A stretch of DNA of 49,421 nucleotides from Clostridium sp. CX1. Its GTDB lineage: Bacteria > Bacillota > Clostridia > Clostridiales > Clostridiaceae. A program made the position numbers and the translations under genes. The stretch's first letter is position 1; every line of letters begins with the position of its first letter. The stretch spans positions 1-49,421 of the forward strand of contig NZ_JAODOO010000021.1 of NCBI RefSeq assembly GCF_025398335.1. Reading direction: 5' to 3'. Shown here in pieces: positions 9,544 to 42,111 of the stretch. The notes beneath the pieces are model-generated. The model searched no databases. It saw only the letters and a list, made by a program, of their open reading frames with translations, and had not been told where the DNA came from.

Positions 9544-10791
9544 TTAGTATAGTCTTATGTTCTCTGGCCAAGGTTCCTGTCTTGCTGCTTTCCAGGTTTT
9601 ATCGATGTATTGGTGAGTATAGGCTTGTTCAACTAAATGATACTGGTAGGTACCTCTATCTGTTAATTCGTAGCCTTCATCTGTTTTACGGATAAGTCCC
9701 ATAAGTATTCCAAAATTTAACTCAAATTTAAATACCTGTTCTAACTCAACATTGAAAAGTCTTTTAAAGCTTTCTTTACTAATTTTTAAGGTATAGGAAT
9801 TCCAAAAGAGCCAATATAGAGCACGGGTTCTTTTAGAGAACTTTAGTGTAAGAGCAGTGGGAATATTTCCGTCATTTATACACTTAATATATTCTTTCAC
9901 TGAAAAGGTATTTATCTTGAAGAAATCCTTTAAAAGGGTGGTGGCGCTTGGCCCGAAGCCTATAAAATTATCTCTTGTAATAGAGGAATACCTTTGAACA
10001 TCTTTTTTTCCAAAAGTCCATACAGCAGTTCTTGCACATTGAAGCTCATCACTGACAGTTTCAAGATATTTAAGAAGCTTTTTTTTCTCCTTCTTTCCTA
10101 AGGGTTTGCTTTTGTTATGGGCATAGGAAAAATCAATGAAAGGATAGGTTGAAACCTGAGTTGCTCCTGAACTAAAAGCTGTAGTAAAATCTCTTCTTAA
10201 ATCCTCTTGGCTTTGTCCCTCTATGCCAAAAATAAGATCAACGTCGATAGTATTAAAACCTGCTGCAGCTGCCATTTTAACTTTCTCCGCACCATCAATA
10301 TATTCTCTTCCTAAAACCTTTAAGCATTTTTCTTCAAAGGACTGAATACCTATACTAACCATGTCAAAACCAATTTCTTTTAGTTTTAATAGAGTTTCAA
10401 AACTAATATCCCTTGGATGAAGCTCTAAGCCTATATTGCATTTTATATCAAAATTATTTCTTAAAGCAGTGAGGATATCAGAAAGTTCGTTGAGCATAAG
10501 TGCTGGTGACCCGCCTCCAAAATATACACTAGTTATTTTATTCTCTTTTTTATCTCTACTACCTACCATATTTATTTCATTTATCAAAGCATCTTTGTAA
10601 GATGCTGCCAGAGATTTATCGTACTTTACCTTATTATAGGGACAGAAGGAACAGATAGTAGTACAAAATGGGATGTGGATGTATATTCCTAGTTCCGGAA
10701 CATTGGTATTGAGTTCATAATTCCTTTCATTAGTAAAAACAAAAGGCTTAAAAGACTTTGTAAAAAGTAGCCTTAAAAAACTAGTAATCAC
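9544..10791 (-). CDS. HemN/HemW-like radical SAM protein
   Basis: The 415-residue protein has the radical SAM cluster motif CTTICSFC (C43, C47, C50) after GIYIHIPF, a hallmark of the HemN/HemW group, then FGGGSP for SAM binding, IGIQSF, and a HemN-type C-terminal winged-helix region. Known relatives are oxygen-independent coproporphyrinogen oxidase, the haem chaperone HemW and haem-degrading enzymes such as ChuW. Because it is an accessory copy paired with another radical SAM gene, a specialised role is more likely than housekeeping haem synthesis. GTG at 10791 is used because AGGAGAG lies at ideal distance. It follows the upstream radical SAM gene by 12 bp, so the two are co-transcribed. Confidence 0.82.
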   Translation of the reverse strand: MITSFLRLLFTKSFKPFVFTNERNYELNTNVPELGIYIHIPFCTTICSFCPYNKVKYDKSLAASYKDALINEINMVGSRDKKENKITSVYFGGGSPALMLNELSDILTALRNNFDIKCNIGLELHPRDISFETLLKLKEIGFDMVSIGIQSFEEKCLKVLGREYIDGAEKVKMAAAAGFNTIDVDLIFGIEGQSQEDLRRDFTTAFSSGATQVSTYPFIDFSYAHNKSKPLGKKEKKKLLKYLETVSDELQCARTAVWTFGKKDVQRYSSITRDNFIGFGPSATTLLKDFFKINTFSVKEYIKCINDGNIPTALTLKFSKRTRALYWLFWNSYTLKISKESFKRLFNVELEQVFKFELNFGILMGLIRKTDEGYELTDRGTYQYHLVEQAYTHQYIDKTWKAARQEPWPENIRLY

Positions 10792-10803
10792 TATACCACT
10801 CTC

Positions 10804-11706
10804 CTAAACGTATTTTAAGTAAGTTTTTATCATATCAATAATAACTTTGATATTTCCTTTGCAAAGAAGAGAGAACTCAACGGCAAAAAGATATCCGCAC
10901 CTCTCACAAAGGCCTTCAATGTCAACACATCTTCCACAGACAAATCTTTTCTTGTTTTCAGACACTATACATTGGTAACAGGGTCTTTCCCATTTGTTCT
11001 GAAGATAATAGTCTAAGGCAGAGTAGAGATTAAATATAGGGTAGTTCAACTTTATCAGAGATTTAATTGAATTGACAGCTTGCACCTGTTGCTCTTTTGT
11101 TAAAGATAAGTGTTCTGTACCTTCGTAAGGAGTATGGAAGTTAAAGGATATTGATTTCAAATTTGGATTTTCTTTTACTAATTTACATAAGGGCTCAATA
11201 TCTCTATAGTTGATATTGTTAACAGCCATGTATACACAAATATTAGAAGAATTAGCCTTGGACACATTACTTAAGATGATATCAAAGGTATCGCTTCTTA
11301 TTAAGTTATGGTTTTCTTTAGTTCCATCAAGGCTTAGGAAGATTACGTCAGCTTCAGGTATATCTAAATTGATGGTTCCGTTAGTGACAATATTAACTAT
11401 TAAAAAACCAATTCTCTTTGCTTTCTTTATAAGGTCACGTATACTCTTATCACCATCCTTCCAAGTCAAGGTTTCACCACCGCAGAAAAAAAGAATTCTG
11501 ATACCTGTATTATAGAGATTGTGCATCTCTTCTACTATATCATTATAAGGGTACATGACCTTATTTATATTATTAACTGCACAGTGCTTGCAGCTTAGAT
11601 TGCAGTAATCTGTAAGAATTATGGTGCCTAAGATTGGTTTCTTCATTTTAAATAGTATAGTTTTTATTCCAAAAACACTTAAATTTATAAATGATCTTAT
11701 TTTCAA
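10804..11706 (-). CDS. Radical SAM protein with extra C-terminal cysteines
   Basis: The 300-residue protein binds a [4Fe-4S] cluster through CNLSCKHC (C35, C39, C42), followed by FFCGGETL and a TNG turn, as in MoaA-like radical SAM enzymes. The C-terminal third adds seven cysteines (CYQC, CGRC, CERC and one more), suggesting an auxiliary metal site like SPASM/twitch domains, though the spacing does not match a textbook SPASM. Such enzymes often modify peptides or build cofactors; no precursor peptide gene is visible nearby. The start is TTG 11706 behind AGGAAGGTG. The gene lies between an XRE regulator (23 bp upstream) and a HemN-like gene (12 bp downstream). Confidence 0.8.
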   Translation of the reverse strand: MKIRSFINLSVFGIKTILFKMKKPILGTIILTDYCNLSCKHCAVNNINKVMYPYNDIVEEMHNLYNTGIRILFFCGGETLTWKDGDKSIRDLIKKAKRIGFLIVNIVTNGTINLDIPEADVIFLSLDGTKENHNLIRSDTFDIILSNVSKANSSNICVYMAVNNINYRDIEPLCKLVKENPNLKSISFNFHTPYEGTEHLSLTKEQQVQAVNSIKSLIKLNYPIFNLYSALDYYLQNKWERPCYQCIVSENKKRFVCGRCVDIEGLCERCGYLFAVEFSLLCKGNIKVIIDMIKTYLKYV

Positions 11707-11729
11707 AGAGATTCACCTTCCTCTAAAAA

Positions 11730-12179
11730 TTATGTATTCAGTTCCTTCAATCTTTTGTGTATATAATGAAAATCAAAAGAGGAGCAGATTCTTCTGTCTT
11801 TATCATCTAAAATTCTATAGTGCTTAGATATTATATTTTGCTGAATTTTATAAATGCCTTTAAATTCAATATCTTCCCACCATATTCTTCCTCCCATAGT
11901 TTTATCATAGGTTCCTTCATAGCTATCAAAAGCTAAAGACAATATTATGTCCTGTGTTTCTCCACCGAAAGCTAGTTGCAATATTTCGCTATCTCTAAAG
12001 AGAGTGGATACAGCAACAGCAGTAGTCCAACCTAAAGTTCCTCTTCCTTTTTCTATTTGTACCAAGGTTTTTTTAGACACTCCCAGTATATATGCCATTT
12101 TATCTTGGGTATAATTTTTTTCATTTCTTATAAGTTTAACTTTCGAATCTATTATTTTTATAAAATCTTCTCTTGTCAT
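11730..12179 (-). CDS. XRE-family regulator of the radical SAM operon
   Basis: Of 149 residues, about 15-65 form an XRE/Cro-type helix-turn-helix (KLIRNEKNYTQDKMAYILGVSKKTLVQIEKGRG). A C-terminal domain with tryptophans and acidic residues (TMGGRIWWEDIEF..., then KHYRILDDKDRRICSSFD) may sense a signal; I do not recognise it. The ATG at 12179 follows AGAGGAA. The gene is first in a three-gene minus-strand operon, and a perfect palindrome lies about 60 bp upstream, so self-regulation of the whole operon is likely. Confidence 0.85.
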   Translation of the reverse strand: MTREDFIKIIDSKVKLIRNEKNYTQDKMAYILGVSKKTLVQIEKGRGTLGWTTAVAVSTLFRDSEILQLAFGGETQDIILSLAFDSYEGTYDKTMGGRIWWEDIEFKGIYKIQQNIISKHYRILDDKDRRICSSFDFHYIHKRLKELNT

Positions 12180-36934: not shown

Positions 36935-37199
36935 GTGAATTCAAAAATATTTAAAAATTCAAGGCAATGGTAAAACCTTTCAATAATTACATCAGTTACA
37001 TGTGAAATTTTTCACCAAAAATAATTAACAATAATTTATTAATTTGTGCCTTTGCCTTGAAAATTAAAACTTAATAGAGAATTTAGAGGTATACATATAA
37101 GTTGATTCATACTTAAATCGTATAATTCTAATTAGTGACACTATTGCTATTTTCTAAGCAAATCTATGTTCTTAATTCGTAAAATTGCAAAAAACTCCT

Positions 37200-37234
37200 T
37201 TTTACGATAATCATGTTATAATCATGTCGTAAAA
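37200..37234 (+). promoter_or_regulatory. Promoter and dyad of the first OPT-PqqD operon
   Basis: An extended -10 TGTTATAAT (TATAAT 37217-37222) sits between TTTTACGA (37200-37207) and TCGTAAAA (37227-37234), an exact inverted repeat, with inner CATG copies. The dyad centred on the -10 box suggests a repressor site. The second copy keeps the promoter but not this dyad. Confidence 0.65.
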
Positions 37235-37255
37235 TAAAAAAGGAGGTACATCTTT

Positions 37256-39178
37256 ATGGATAATAAATTGTCTAAAGATGCATATGGTGGCGTAGCAGGT
37301 AAAGACTACGTTCCTTATATTTCCAGTGGTTCAAAATCCGGTGGAAATGTTACTGTATTAATAATTGGTATTCTTTTAGCTGTTTTATTTGCAGCATCAA
37401 CTGCCTATTCAGGTATGAAGTCAGGACTTACAGTTGCAGCTGGTATTCCTGGTTCAATAATAGGTTCAGCTTTTGTAGCTGCATTTGCTAAACAAAAAGG
37501 TATTCTTGGAAAAAACTTAATTCAAGGTATGGCAAGTGGCGGAGAATCAGTTGCTAGTGGTATGATATTCGTTTTACCAGCAGTTCTTTTAATAGGATCA
37601 AAGGTTTCCTTCTTAGAAGGTTTTGCTGTTGGTGTAGGTGGAGTTTTATTCGGTATAGGAATAGCTTCTCTTGTACACAATTATTTAATAGTTGAAGAAC
37701 ACGGTAAATTAATGTACCCTGAGTCAATGGCTATATCTGAAACACTTGTTGCTTCAGAAGGTGCTGGAGATTCAATGAAGTACATGGGAATCGGATTTGG
37801 AATAGGTGGTATCATAACTGTTATAACTGGTTCATTCTTAAATGTAGCTAATAACGTTATAAGCTATGTAAACGAATCCTTCTACAAGTGGAAACTTGAA
37901 GTTGAAGTTAACCCTCTATTATTAGGTATAGGATTCATAGTTGGTTTAGATGTTTCTTTAACTATGTTTGCTGGTTCTATATTATCTAACTTTGGTATTA
38001 TGCCTTTAATAGGTTACTTCTCTACTCTTGCAAATGACGGAGCAACAGTATGGAATGCTCCTGGTGTTGCTATAAATGCTATGAAAGTTAATAACATAGC
38101 TGGTAGTTATGTAAAATATATCGGTGCTGGTATGATGCTTTCTGGTGGTTTAATAGGTGCTATAAAGCTTATACCTACTATAATATCTTCTATAAAAGAA
38201 ACTCTTAACGCTAAGTCTTCAAATAGTGGTGCTGGCAGTTCATCTGCTGGAAACATAATATTACTTGGTGGAGTAGTGGTAGGTTTCATAGGAGGATTCC
38301 TAATATCTGGTGGTAATATAGTTATGGCAATAGCTGCTTCTGTTTTATCATTATTCTTATCATTACTATTTGTTATAGTTTCTGGTCGTTTAACTGGTAC
38401 TATAGGAACTTCAAACCTTCCTGTATCTGGTATGACTATAGCTTCTATAGTTCTTGTAACATTATTATTCGTTGTAATGGGATGGAAAGACCTTGAAAGT
38501 AATAGATCATTACTTTTATTTGGTACATTTATAGTTGTTGCTATATCTGCAGCTGGTGGTTACTGTCAATCACAAAAAGTTACTTTTGTAATAGGTGGAG
38601 ACAAGAACGAAATGCAAAAATATTTTGCTATAGCTGGTGTAGTTGGTGTTGCAGTAGTTGTTGGTACTATATTATTACTTTCTAGTCAACTTTCAATGAC
38701 TGGTGATAACGTTCCATTTGCATTACCTCAAGCTAACTTAATATCAACATTAACTGCTGGCATAATGTCAGGCAGCTTACCTTGGGTTATGATAATTGTT
38801 GGTATCGTTATGGGAGTTGTTTTATTCTTATTAAACCTTCCAGTAATGACAGTTGCTATAGGTTTCTATCTACCAATAGCTACAACTTCTATAATATTAG
38901 TAGGAGCATTAGTTCGTCTATTTGTAGAAAGAGCTTCTAAATCCGAACAAGAAAAAGAAGTTAAAGTTTCTAATGGTATAAGCTTATCTTCTGGACTTGT
39001 TGCTGGTGGTTCTATAATAGGTCTTATCGGTATAATACTTCAAGTAGCAGGTGTTATAAAAGGAAAGGGACCAAGTGGATTCGCTAGTTCTAATGGAATG
39101 GCATTTGTACTATTGATAGCTCTAGTAGTAGCTACTGCAATACCTTTACTTAATAGTAAAGTGAAAGATGCCAAATAG
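37256..39178 (+). CDS. OPT/YSL-family transporter, copy 1
   Basis: The 640-residue protein is an oligopeptide transporter (OPT) of the bacterial type, with about 14-16 membrane helices and hallmark segments STAYSGMKSGLTVAAGIPGS, GMASGGESVASGMIFVLPA, GKLMYPESMAISETLVASEG and FVGLDVSLTMFAGSILSNFG-like stretches. OPT proteins import small peptides or metal-chelate complexes using ion gradients. A glycine/serine-rich loop (SSNSGAGSSSAGN) sits mid-protein. AAAGGAGG precedes the ATG. The last 11 bp overlap the PqqD-like gene, implying coupled translation. A second copy about 95% identical follows at 39810. Confidence 0.88.
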   Translation: MDNKLSKDAYGGVAGKDYVPYISSGSKSGGNVTVLIIGILLAVLFAASTAYSGMKSGLTVAAGIPGSIIGSAFVAAFAKQKGILGKNLIQGMASGGESVASGMIFVLPAVLLIGSKVSFLEGFAVGVGGVLFGIGIASLVHNYLIVEEHGKLMYPESMAISETLVASEGAGDSMKYMGIGFGIGGIITVITGSFLNVANNVISYVNESFYKWKLEVEVNPLLLGIGFIVGLDVSLTMFAGSILSNFGIMPLIGYFSTLANDGATVWNAPGVAINAMKVNNIAGSYVKYIGAGMMLSGGLIGAIKLIPTIISSIKETLNAKSSNSGAGSSSAGNIILLGGVVVGFIGGFLISGGNIVMAIAASVLSLFLSLLFVIVSGRLTGTIGTSNLPVSGMTIASIVLVTLLFVVMGWKDLESNRSLLLFGTFIVVAISAAGGYCQSQKVTFVIGGDKNEMQKYFAIAGVVGVAVVVGTILLLSSQLSMTGDNVPFALPQANLISTLTAGIMSGSLPWVMIIVGIVMGVVLFLLNLPVMTVAIGFYLPIATTSIILVGALVRLFVERASKSEQEKEVKVSNGISLSSGLVAGGSIIGLIGIILQVAGVIKGKGPSGFASSNGMAFVLLIALVVATAIPLLNSKVKDAK

Positions 39179-39518
39179 TAACGAAGAGGTTTTAAATATT
39201 ATATTTAAAATCTCTGATAACTTGGAATATGAAGTTGATAAAGATAATATTGTGACAATACTTGAAAAACAAGATCATAAGGTACAAAATTTCTTTAGAA
39301 AACTTAAGTTCAGAATTCCAGAATATAAAAAAATCACTCTAGATGAATATGGAAGTTATGTGTTTTTACAAATAGATGGCAAGAAAACTGTAAAAGATAT
39401 AGGAGAAAATCTTGAAGCAAAGTATGGTGAGGAAGCTAACCCGCTTTATGAAAGATTATTGTTATTCTTAAACCATATCGATGTTAATTGTCACTACATA
39501 GAGAAAACAAACTTCTAA
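39168..39518 (+). CDS. PqqD-like protein, copy 1
   Basis: The 116-residue protein ends in a PqqD-like domain (about 55-116): KITLDEYGSYVFLQIDGKKTVKDIGENLEAKYGEEANPLYERLLLFLNHI. The DxxGSYVFxxIDGKxTVxDIxxxL pattern matches PqqD/RRE folds, which bind leader peptides in PQQ and RiPP biosynthesis. The N-terminal 50 residues are charged. Its ATG lies inside the transporter's last codons (11-bp overlap), so the two are translated together. No precursor peptide gene or modifying enzyme adjoins it. A role in guiding a peptide to the transporter is inferred, not shown. Confidence 0.75.
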   Translation: MPNSNEEVLNIIFKISDNLEYEVDKDNIVTILEKQDHKVQNFFRKLKFRIPEYKKITLDEYGSYVFLQIDGKKTVKDIGENLEAKYGEEANPLYERLLLFLNHIDVNCHYIEKTNF

Positions 39519-39523
39519 CACAA

Positions 39524-39562
39524 AAGATGGCATTGCATTGCAAATGCCATCTTTATTTTTTT
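39524..39562 (+). terminator. Terminator of OPT-PqqD operon 1
   Basis: AAGATGGCATT (39524-39534) pairs exactly with AATGCCATCTT (39543-39553), followed by TATTTTTTT. Confidence 0.9.
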
Positions 39563-39608
39563 GTATTATAAAGACAAAATTAGCACAACCTAAGATAATT
39601 TCAATAAA

Positions 39609-39690
39609 GATATAAGTGTTAGCAAAGCTACAGTTAAAAAATTAGTGAAGAAATATGAAACTCATGGAGAAGATGCATGTGTCCAATCAT
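39609..39690 (+). pseudogene. Fragment of an IS3-type transposase OrfA
   Basis: One frame reads DISVSKATVKKLVKKYETHG, then EDAC, the helix-turn-helix of OrfA proteins in IS3-like elements (SVSTVKKLVKRYETHGEDAF in intact ones). It is only about 27 codons long, with no catalytic part. It lies in the spacer between the two OPT-PqqD copies. Confidence 0.6.
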
Positions 39691-39768
39691 TTTTCTTATT
39701 CCTAAAATTGAGATTTGAATGTAAACCATCTGCAAAAAATGAAAAATATACCTTTTTGACCATAATTA

Positions 39769-39777
39769 TGTTATAAT
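39769..39777 (+). promoter_or_regulatory. Promoter of OPT-PqqD operon 2
   Basis: TGTTATAAT (TATAAT 39772-39777) mirrors the extended -10 of copy 1. The TTGACC at 39756 lies too close to serve as a normal -35. Confidence 0.6.
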
Positions 39778-39809
39778 AGTTAAACAAAACAAAAAAGGGG
39801 GTACGTCTT

Positions 39810-41729
39810 ATGGATAAAAAATTATCTAAAGATGCATATGGTGGCATAGCTGGTAAAAACTATGTCCCTTATATTTCCAGTGGTTCAAAATCCGGTGGAA
39901 ATGTTGCAGTATTAGTAATAGGTATTGTTTTGGCTGCCTTATTCGCAGCATCAACTGCCTATTCAGGTATGAAATCAGGACTTACAGTTGCTGCCGGTAT
40001 ACCTGGCTCTATAATAGGCTCTGCCTTTATAGCTGCATTTGCTAAGCAAAAAGGTATTCTTGGCAAAAATCTACTTCAAGGTATGTCAAGTGGTGGAGAA
40101 TCAGTTGCTAGTGGTATAATATTTGTTTTACCAGCAGTTCTTTTAATAGGATCCAAAGTTTCCTTCTTAGAAGGTTTGGCTGTTGGTGTAGGTGGAGTTC
40201 TATTCGGCATAGGAATAGCTTCTCTTGTTTACAACTATCTAATAGTTGAAGAACACGGTAAATTAATGTATCCTGAGTCAATGGCTATATCTGAAACACT
40301 TGTTGCTTCAGAAGGTGCTGGAGAATCAATGAAGTACATGGGAATAGGATTTGGAATAGGTGGTATTATAACTGTTATAACTGGTTCATTCTTAAATGTA
40401 GCTAATAACGTTATAAGCTATGTAAACGAATCCTTTTACAAGTGGAAATTTGAAGTTGAGGTTAATCCTCTATTATTAGGTATAGGATTCATAGTTGGTT
40501 TAGATGTTTCTTTAACTATGTTTGCTGGCTCCATATTATCTAACTTTGGTATCATGCCTTTGATAGGTTACTTCTCTACTCTTGCAAATGACGGAGCAAC
40601 AGTATGGAATGCTCCTGGTGTTGCTATAAATGCTATGAAAGTTAATAACATAGCTGGTAGTTATGTAAAATATATCGGCGCTGGTATGATGCTTTCTGGT
40701 GGTTTAATAGGTGCTATAAAGCTTATACCTACTATAATATCTTCTATAAAAGAAACTCTTAACGCTAAGTCTTCCAATAGTGCTGGTAGTTCATCTGCTG
40801 GAAACTTAATATTAATTGGTGGAATAGTAGTAGGTTTCATAGGCGGTTTCCTAATATCTGGCGGTAACATATTAATGGCAATTACTGCTTCTATTTTATC
40901 ATTATTCTTATCATTACTATTTGTTATAGTTTCTGGTCGTTTAACTGGTACTATAGGAACTTCAAACCTTCCTGTATCTGGTATGACCATAGCTTCTATA
41001 GTTGTTGTAACATTACTATTCGTTGCAATGGGATGGAAAAACCTTGAAAGTAACAGATCTCTACTTCTATTTGGTACATTTATAGTTACTGCTATAGCCA
41101 TGGCTGGTGGATATTGTCAATCACAAAAAGTTACTTTTGTAATAGGTGGAGACAAGAACGAAATGCAAAAATACTTTGCTATAGCTGGTGTGGTTGGTGT
41201 TGCAGTAGTTGTTGGTACTATATTATTACTTTCAAGCCAACTTTCAATGACTGGTGATAACGTTCCATTTGCATTACCTCAGGCTAACTTAATGTCAACA
41301 TTAACTGCCGGTATAATGTCAGGCAGCTTACCTTGGGTTATGATAATTGTTGGTATCGTTATGGGAATTGTTTTATTCTTATTAAACCTTCCAGTAATGA
41401 CAGTTGCTATAGGTTTCTACTTACCAATATCTACAACTTCTATAATATTAATAGGAGCATTAGTTCGTCTATTTGTAGAAAGAGCTTCTAAATCCGAACA
41501 AGAAAAAGAAGTTAAGATTGCTAATGGTATAAGCTTATCTTCTGGACTTGTTGCTGGTGGTTCTATAATAGGACTTATTGGTATAATACTTCAAGTGTCA
41601 GGTGTTATAAAAGGAGCTGGACCAAGTGGCTTTACTGCTTCTAATGGAATGGCAATTATATTACTAATACTTCTAGTAATAGTTACTACAATACCAATAG
41701 CAAACAGTAAGGTTAAAAATGCCAAATAG
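39810..41729 (+). CDS. OPT/YSL-family transporter, copy 2
   Basis: The 639-residue protein repeats copy 1 almost residue for residue. One glycine is missing from the mid-protein SSNSAGSSSAGN loop, and the differences (such as A to S in GMSSGGESVASG and V to I changes in membrane helices) are mostly conservative. Both copies look intact, so both probably function. AAAAGGGGG precedes the ATG, and the end overlaps the second PqqD-like gene by 11 bp as before. Synonymous changes are spread throughout, so the duplication is not brand new. Confidence 0.88.
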   Translation: MDKKLSKDAYGGIAGKNYVPYISSGSKSGGNVAVLVIGIVLAALFAASTAYSGMKSGLTVAAGIPGSIIGSAFIAAFAKQKGILGKNLLQGMSSGGESVASGIIFVLPAVLLIGSKVSFLEGLAVGVGGVLFGIGIASLVYNYLIVEEHGKLMYPESMAISETLVASEGAGESMKYMGIGFGIGGIITVITGSFLNVANNVISYVNESFYKWKFEVEVNPLLLGIGFIVGLDVSLTMFAGSILSNFGIMPLIGYFSTLANDGATVWNAPGVAINAMKVNNIAGSYVKYIGAGMMLSGGLIGAIKLIPTIISSIKETLNAKSSNSAGSSSAGNLILIGGIVVGFIGGFLISGGNILMAITASILSLFLSLLFVIVSGRLTGTIGTSNLPVSGMTIASIVVVTLLFVAMGWKNLESNRSLLLFGTFIVTAIAMAGGYCQSQKVTFVIGGDKNEMQKYFAIAGVVGVAVVVGTILLLSSQLSMTGDNVPFALPQANLMSTLTAGIMSGSLPWVMIIVGIVMGIVLFLLNLPVMTVAIGFYLPISTTSIILIGALVRLFVERASKSEQEKEVKIANGISLSSGLVAGGSIIGLIGIILQVSGVIKGAGPSGFTASNGMAIILLILLVIVTTIPIANSKVKNAK

Positions 41730-42069
41730 CAATGAAGAGGTATTAAATATAACATTTAAAATCTCTAATAACTTGGAATATGAAGTGGATAAAGATAATA
41801 TTGTGACCATACTTGAAAAACAGGATCATAAGGTACAAAATTTCTTTAGAAAACTTAAATTCAGAATTCCAGAATATAAAAAAATTACTCTGGACGAATA
41901 TGGAAGTTATGTGTTTTTACAAATAGATGGCAAGAGAACTGTAAAAGATATAGGAGAAAATCTTGAGGCAAAGTATGGTGAGAAAGCTCACCCACTTTAT
42001 GAAAGGTTATTGTTATTCTTAAACCATATCAACGTTAATTGTCACTACATAGAAAAAACAAATTTCTAA
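41719..42069 (+). CDS. PqqD-like protein, copy 2
   Basis: The 116-residue protein differs from copy 1 at only six positions (for example I to T at 12, D to N at 17, K to R in IDGKRTV, and EEAN to EKAH). The PqqD-like core is unchanged. The gene again begins inside the end of the transporter gene. Retention of both partners in both copies indicates that transporter and PqqD-like protein work as a unit. Confidence 0.75.
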   Translation: MPNSNEEVLNITFKISNNLEYEVDKDNIVTILEKQDHKVQNFFRKLKFRIPEYKKITLDEYGSYVFLQIDGKRTVKDIGENLEAKYGEKAHPLYERLLLFLNHINVNCHYIEKTNF

Positions 42070-42074
42070 TACAA

Positions 42075-42111
42075 AAGATGGCACTCATTGTAGGTGCCAT
42101 CTTTGTTTTTA
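42075..42111 (+). terminator. Terminator of OPT-PqqD operon 2
   Basis: AAGATGGCAC (42075-42084) pairs exactly with GTGCCATCTT (42094-42103), followed by TGTTTTT. It is a diverged copy of the terminator at 39524. Confidence 0.88.

Follow-up and report, generated by a model that had tools for sequence, protein, structure and literature searches.

Tandem duplication of nutrient-transporter operons is a known kind of event. Among the transporters of the OPT family (PF03169), described proteins include those of the TIGR00733 branch and a relative with a solved structure, barley YS1 (PDB entry 7wsr), which is a carrier of iron-phytosiderophore. The small proteins of PF05402 include PqqD of pyrroloquinoline quinone (PQQ) biosynthesis. 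Recognition elements (RREs) of ribosomally synthesised and post-translationally modified peptides (RiPPs) are sought as flags of RiPP pathways, and they occur as discrete proteins in lasso peptide clusters (TbiB1 type). The stretch analysed here, which we call the window, is the 49,421-base contig NZ_JAODOO010000021.1 of Clostridium sp. CX1. It carries two head-to-tail bicistrons (37256-39518 and 39810-42069), each composed of an OPT transporter gene and a PqqD-like gene, and in both copies the end of the former overlaps the start of the latter by 11 bp. The four open reading frames (ORFs) are complete, as the original prediction had described them:

37256..39178, + strand: OPT transporter copy 1, 640 aa; PF03169 260.3 bits, TIGR00733 183.1 bits (cut-off 182.5)
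39168..39518, + strand: PqqD-like protein copy 1, 116 aa, its start codon lying within the last bases of the OPT gene; PF05402 32.8 bits, AlphaFold predicted local distance difference test score (pLDDT) 91.7, RRE-type fold
39810..41729, + strand: OPT transporter copy 2, 639 aa; PF03169 260.3 bits, TIGR00733 184.2 bits
41719..42069, + strand: PqqD-like protein copy 2, 116 aa; PF05402 30.4 bits, 110/116 residues as in copy 1

Both transporters are intact, as had been claimed: their frames are open and each matches PF03169 far above the gathering score of 25.8 bits, over most of the protein (residues 34-595). TIGR00733 is reached only barely. The OPT model (pLDDT 78.2) resembles 7wsr, its best match in the PDB (E 1.3e-12, template modelling score 0.59-0.62). 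What sets the window proteins apart from this branch is the pairing with a small RRE-fold protein; their identity to more distant aligned OPTs is 26-36%. The small protein belongs to the PF05402 superfamily (cut-off 23.4 bits), and its model has the winged-helix fold of an RRE. The best Foldseek matches are to an RRE holding its leader peptide, and TbiB1, one of the closest solved folds, shares 24-25% identity with it over 84-88 residues; however, no lasso machinery was recognised beside the pairs in a partial screen. We also considered PqqD of PQQ biosynthesis itself. Family and fold are common to both, but the window proteins sit behind a transporter and score 20.2 and 21.6 bits, far short of the NCBIfam equivalog cut-off of 46.

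It is the conserved pair, more than its doubling, that merits attention, and it suggests that an RRE-fold accessory protein serves a peptide importer. A scan of named genomes with an alignment of the PqqD-like protein gave 382 confirmed stretches, and the best 80 of them (79 loci), chosen by closeness to the window protein, were examined. An OPT ORF lies directly upstream on the same strand in all 79 loci (in 75 a fixed rule finds it; in the other 4 the ORF start is over-extended), and the 11-bp overlap is the commonest arrangement (32/79). A less biased sample are 245 genomes of the class, in which an OPT gene precedes 55 of 59 PqqD-like matches (in 52 of 56 genomes), and in which the partner is found beside 52 of 58 long OPT frames versus 2 of 18 shorter frames, both incomplete. 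The window genome's own short OPT, on contig C8, has no PqqD-like partner. A phylum sample of 299 genomes shares at least four with the class sample; in it, 16 of 21 PqqD-like matches follow an OPT gene and none of the 19 short OPTs has a partner. The two genes are annotated side by side in Peptoclostridium and Enterococcus (as "OPT family" or "OPT/YSL family" and "PqqD family protein"); we were not able to find any description of the conserved pairing.

We favour, with some confidence but not a great deal, the reading that the window holds, in two copies each transcribed on its own, a peptide-uptake module consisting of an OPT importer and a cytosolic RRE-fold accessory protein. What the analysis itself shows is the genes, their duplication, the purifying selection on them, the conserved pairing, the predicted fold and the peptidase neighbours in relatives. 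The OPT protein would be a secondary transporter that brings in small peptides, and the overlapping frames would allow both proteins to be made together by translational coupling. Most simply, the PqqD-like protein would bind the incoming peptide or the cytosolic face of the transporter. The module was duplicated in tandem, by this reading after the lineage had parted from its sampled congeners, and its middle stretch was then probably homogenised by gene conversion. Both copies are retained by selection, and having two would bring some advantage. A bolder version, which we regard as tentative and rather doubtful, is a two-subunit peptide importer whose RRE-fold subunit docks on the cytosolic side to capture or gate the peptide; PqqD-like proteins would then be a more broadly reusable accessory of OPT, Opp, OpuB-like and PiT transporters, and the RRE would have a part in uptake besides its part in RiPP assembly. 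For RiPP mining, PqqD-family proteins conserved beside a peptide-type importer would yield systematic false positives. If they do work with the transporter, this would be a new role for the RRE fold and a handle on the cargo of bacterial OPT proteins. Copy number within the genus ranges from one to three, and some copies are partnerless, which makes the genus a natural series for testing the role of the pair.

The genes around the pairs, on balance, favour peptide import over RiPP synthesis. The commonest neighbour is PepD, found in 16 of the 79 loci, always on the same strand and mostly directly adjacent (15 of 17 ORFs). A cluster with PepV as its representative adjoins the pair in 4 loci and an oxidoreductase-like cluster in 6; PepD or PepV is near the pair in 20/79. 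Peptoclostridium has OPT, PqqD family protein and aminoacyl-histidine dipeptidase in this order; in Enterococcus the order is pepV, OPT, PqqD family protein, followed by a zinc-ribbon gene and an Xaa-Pro dipeptidyl-peptidase. As a separate observation, two loci (L065 2189-7506 and L180 853-5632) combine OPT with a gene that looks by eye like a dipeptidase and with a relative of L-Ala-D/L-Glu epimerase, below the equivalog cut-off; these neighbours may hint at cell-wall peptide recycling.

PqqD-like genes that do not follow an OPT gene were looked at in nine genomes. In G161 (L165 3608-3958, 4266-7171) an OppA-type binding protein gene precedes the PqqD-like gene by 308 bp on the same strand, and an ORF upstream looks by eye like an ABC ATPase; this may be a second kind of peptide importer with a PqqD-like neighbour. 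The strand is likewise shared in three more genomes: in G031 an OpuB-like ABC gene precedes the PqqD-like gene by 70 bp, in G473 (L177 1637-3184) a PiT phosphate transporter gene follows it after 135 bp, and in G507 an ABC-2 permease follows. Judged by eye, the PqqD-like gene is opposite to ABC-2-like ORFs in G459 and near ABC-exporter-like ORFs in G128, and no transporter stands directly beside it in G287, G201 and G236.

Several results weigh against the peptide-uptake reading. One is that some relatives of the PqqD-like gene adjoin other transporters (OpuB-like, PiT, ABC-2) or none, as just described. Of the 36 long OPTs in the phylum sample only 16 are accompanied by the partner, and by the counts from this sample the link is looser outside the class. 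Neither PepD nor PepV occurs in the fetched stretch of 59 of the 79 loci, and in the window itself the pairs have a helicase, a cupin and a response regulator as neighbours, with no peptidases. No Foldseek match of the PqqD-like protein reaches E 1e-3. The sole PDB relative found for the OPT protein is the plant carrier 7wsr, and since this carries iron-phytosiderophore, a metal chelate is also possible as the substrate. Finally, the partner is dispensable, with the OPT gene staying open where it was lost. We counted OPT copies in 117 related genomes at E <= 1e-150; 26 hold this OPT, 21 with a PqqD-like gene at it and 5 with no intact partner beside it (G008 and, by coordinates only, G009, G031, G043 and G048). 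In G008 (L080 4385-4560) the OPT gene is open and the PqqD-like gene is reduced to a frame of some 45 codons, about 36 of them matching. G004 has two OPTs and one partner, its second PqqD-like gene being eroded to a short start beside an OPT gene that is still open; G001, across a contig break, retains a single partner plus a remnant, and the OPT gene of its second copy is open. The original prediction had taken the retention of both partners in both copies as telling. This is not supported in that form: these last two are among the five multi-copy genomes of the genus.

The duplication is real and functional, but ordinary in kind. The DNA alignment that had been proposed gives 92.06% identity over 2381 bp (blastn). 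Since both copies are on one contig of 49,421 bases, have different flanks and diverge by 8%, an assembly echo is very unlikely. The PqqD-like copies differ at 6 of 116 residues, exactly as predicted, and the OPT copies at 46 of 639 plus one indel. A ratio of nonsynonymous to synonymous divergence (dN/dS) near 1 was to be the sign of decay. By NG86 we obtain dN 0.038 and dS 0.201 for OPT (ratio 0.189) and 0.021 and 0.332 for the PqqD-like gene (0.063); by YN00 0.036 and 0.331 (about 0.11) and 0.028 and 0.201 (about 0.14). With ratios well below 1 for both genes neither copy is decaying: both copies are open and both genes are under purifying selection. Head-to-tail copies with their own signals, purifying selection and recurrence in the genus are features shared with known duplications of nutrient-transporter operons; nothing is unusual in kind here, and what differs is the loss of the small partner in some copies.

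Silent divergence is uneven by region: in OPT, dS is 0.40 in codons 1-80 versus 0.07 in codons 241-320. The two copies group together in trees of all four segments (support 94, 100, 75 and 100). In codons 1-160 they are 0.128 apart, about their distance to G006 (0.127-0.142), and in codons 161-330 only 0.028. Most simply, these distances point to a duplication that is somewhat younger than the split from G006, or about its age, and to a middle stretch that gene conversion has probably homogenised afterwards; the run-length test for conversion, taken alone, is weak (p 0.12 and 0.02). Copy numbers in relatives, another check suggested at the outset, place the event in context. The genus genomes G000 to G006 hold 2, 2, 3, 1, 2, 1 and 2 OPT copies, that is, two or three in 5 of 7, and the remaining 19 relatives with this OPT hold one each. 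Full tandem pairs number two in G006 and three in G002, and the ORFs flanking the pairs differ, by eye, between G000, G006 and G002/G004. Given these counts, losses and flanks, tandem arrays are common in the genus, probably arose more than once, and can lose the partner from one copy.

The signals of the two copies, most of them read in the sequence, are as follows:

37214..37222, + strand: extended -10 TGTTATAAT of copy 1, pattern TGnTATAAT, read in sequence
39769..39777, + strand: extended -10 TGTTATAAT of copy 2, pattern TGnTATAAT, read in sequence and from the upstream alignment
37240..37247, + strand: ribosome site AAGGAGGT of copy 1, read in sequence
39795..39802, + strand: ribosome site AAGGGGGT of copy 2, read in sequence
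39523..39554, + strand: intrinsic terminator downstream of copy 1, a stem of 12 pairs followed by a run of T
42074..42104, + strand: intrinsic terminator downstream of copy 2, a stem of 12 pairs followed by a run of T
37177..37234, no strand assigned: three half-sites TTTTACGA/TCGTAAAA around the -10 of copy 1, inner pair TTTTACGA-N19-TCGTAAAA; absent from copy 2

Ribosome sites and terminator hairpins are thus duplicated, in agreement with the original prediction. Its claim of duplicated promoter boxes stands in part: both copies have the extended -10, and TGnTATAAT lies within 130 bp upstream of 22 of 37 OPT genes compared, but no -35 was recognised. Neither copy appears in the sigma-70 scan, for which a -35 is required as well, so that only the -10 is supported and not a full promoter. 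The first terminator sits between the units and each copy is therefore probably its own transcription unit.

The half-sites bear on the idea that the PqqD-like protein is a winged-helix DNA- or RNA-binding feedback regulator of its own operon and not a partner of the transporter. In the whole 4.24 Mb assembly a single site, at the -10 of copy 1, has the paired form (spacer 10-24). However, this form is missing from copy 2 and from all 35 upstream stretches of relatives' OPT genes, one of which has a single half-site; moreover, Pfam yields PqqD and no helix-turn-helix family at E <= 0.1, and the PqqD-like gene follows the long OPT subfamily only. We consider such a regulator unlikely. To about the same degree we doubt that the protein is a mere folding, assembly or stability factor for OPT that never touches the cargo: the same data on gene order and overlap speak for this, related genes adjoin unrelated transporters and the partner is repeatedly lost while OPT is kept, but the closest solved folds bind peptides. 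Much less probable still is an unrecognised RiPP pathway, in which the PqqD-like protein would be the RRE and OPT would move the precursor or product. It would agree with the PF05402 membership and the RRE fold, and in one locus (L143) a motif stretch 1.4 kb from the pair looks like that of peptide-maturing radical S-adenosylmethionine (SAM) enzymes. On the other hand, only 5 of the 79 loci have, in their fetched flanks, an ORF of more than 180 aa with the radical-SAM-type motif CxxxCxxC, and three of these carry one identical motif stretch that we take to be MiaB; no modifying enzyme was recognised among the recurring neighbour clusters, which were named only in part and not screened for other RiPP enzyme classes or short precursors.

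As a further alternative, the two copies may have split roles, with copy 2 keeping the ancestral job and copy 1 changing its substrate range and regulation; we see this as possible, yet more doubtful than not. When OPT changes are polarised against relatives, copy 1 has 24 silent and 27 replacement changes and copy 2 has 45 and 15, with 26 unassigned (Fisher p 0.003), and the repeat around the -10 is present in copy 1 only. However, the polarisation is parsimony with few outgroups, relaxed selection would give the same picture, and the PqqD-like genes have no replacement excess in copy 1 (silent/replacement 7/2 versus 7/4 in copy 2). For 37 of the 46 OPT sites that differ, the 25 relatives show both states, and only 2 sites are otherwise invariant. 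The original prediction had pointed to a glycine lost from a mid-protein loop as a place of divergence. The direction appears reversed: this column is occupied in only 2 of 25 related OPTs, so that the glycine was most likely gained by copy 1. Nor do the differences cluster in this loop (residues 322-328), which is disordered in the OPT model (pLDDT <50); 15 of the 46 changes fall in the last 80 codons.

Two minor observations concern the rest of the window. On the minus strand at 9544-12179 there are, by eye, two radical-SAM-looking ORFs and an Xre-type regulator, with no sign of a tie to the OPT/PqqD-like pairs. Between the copies, the open frame 39615-39749 resembles a scrap of a transposase-type helix-turn-helix (HTH_28, E 0.014, below the cut-off), and it is possibly a trace of how the duplication arose.
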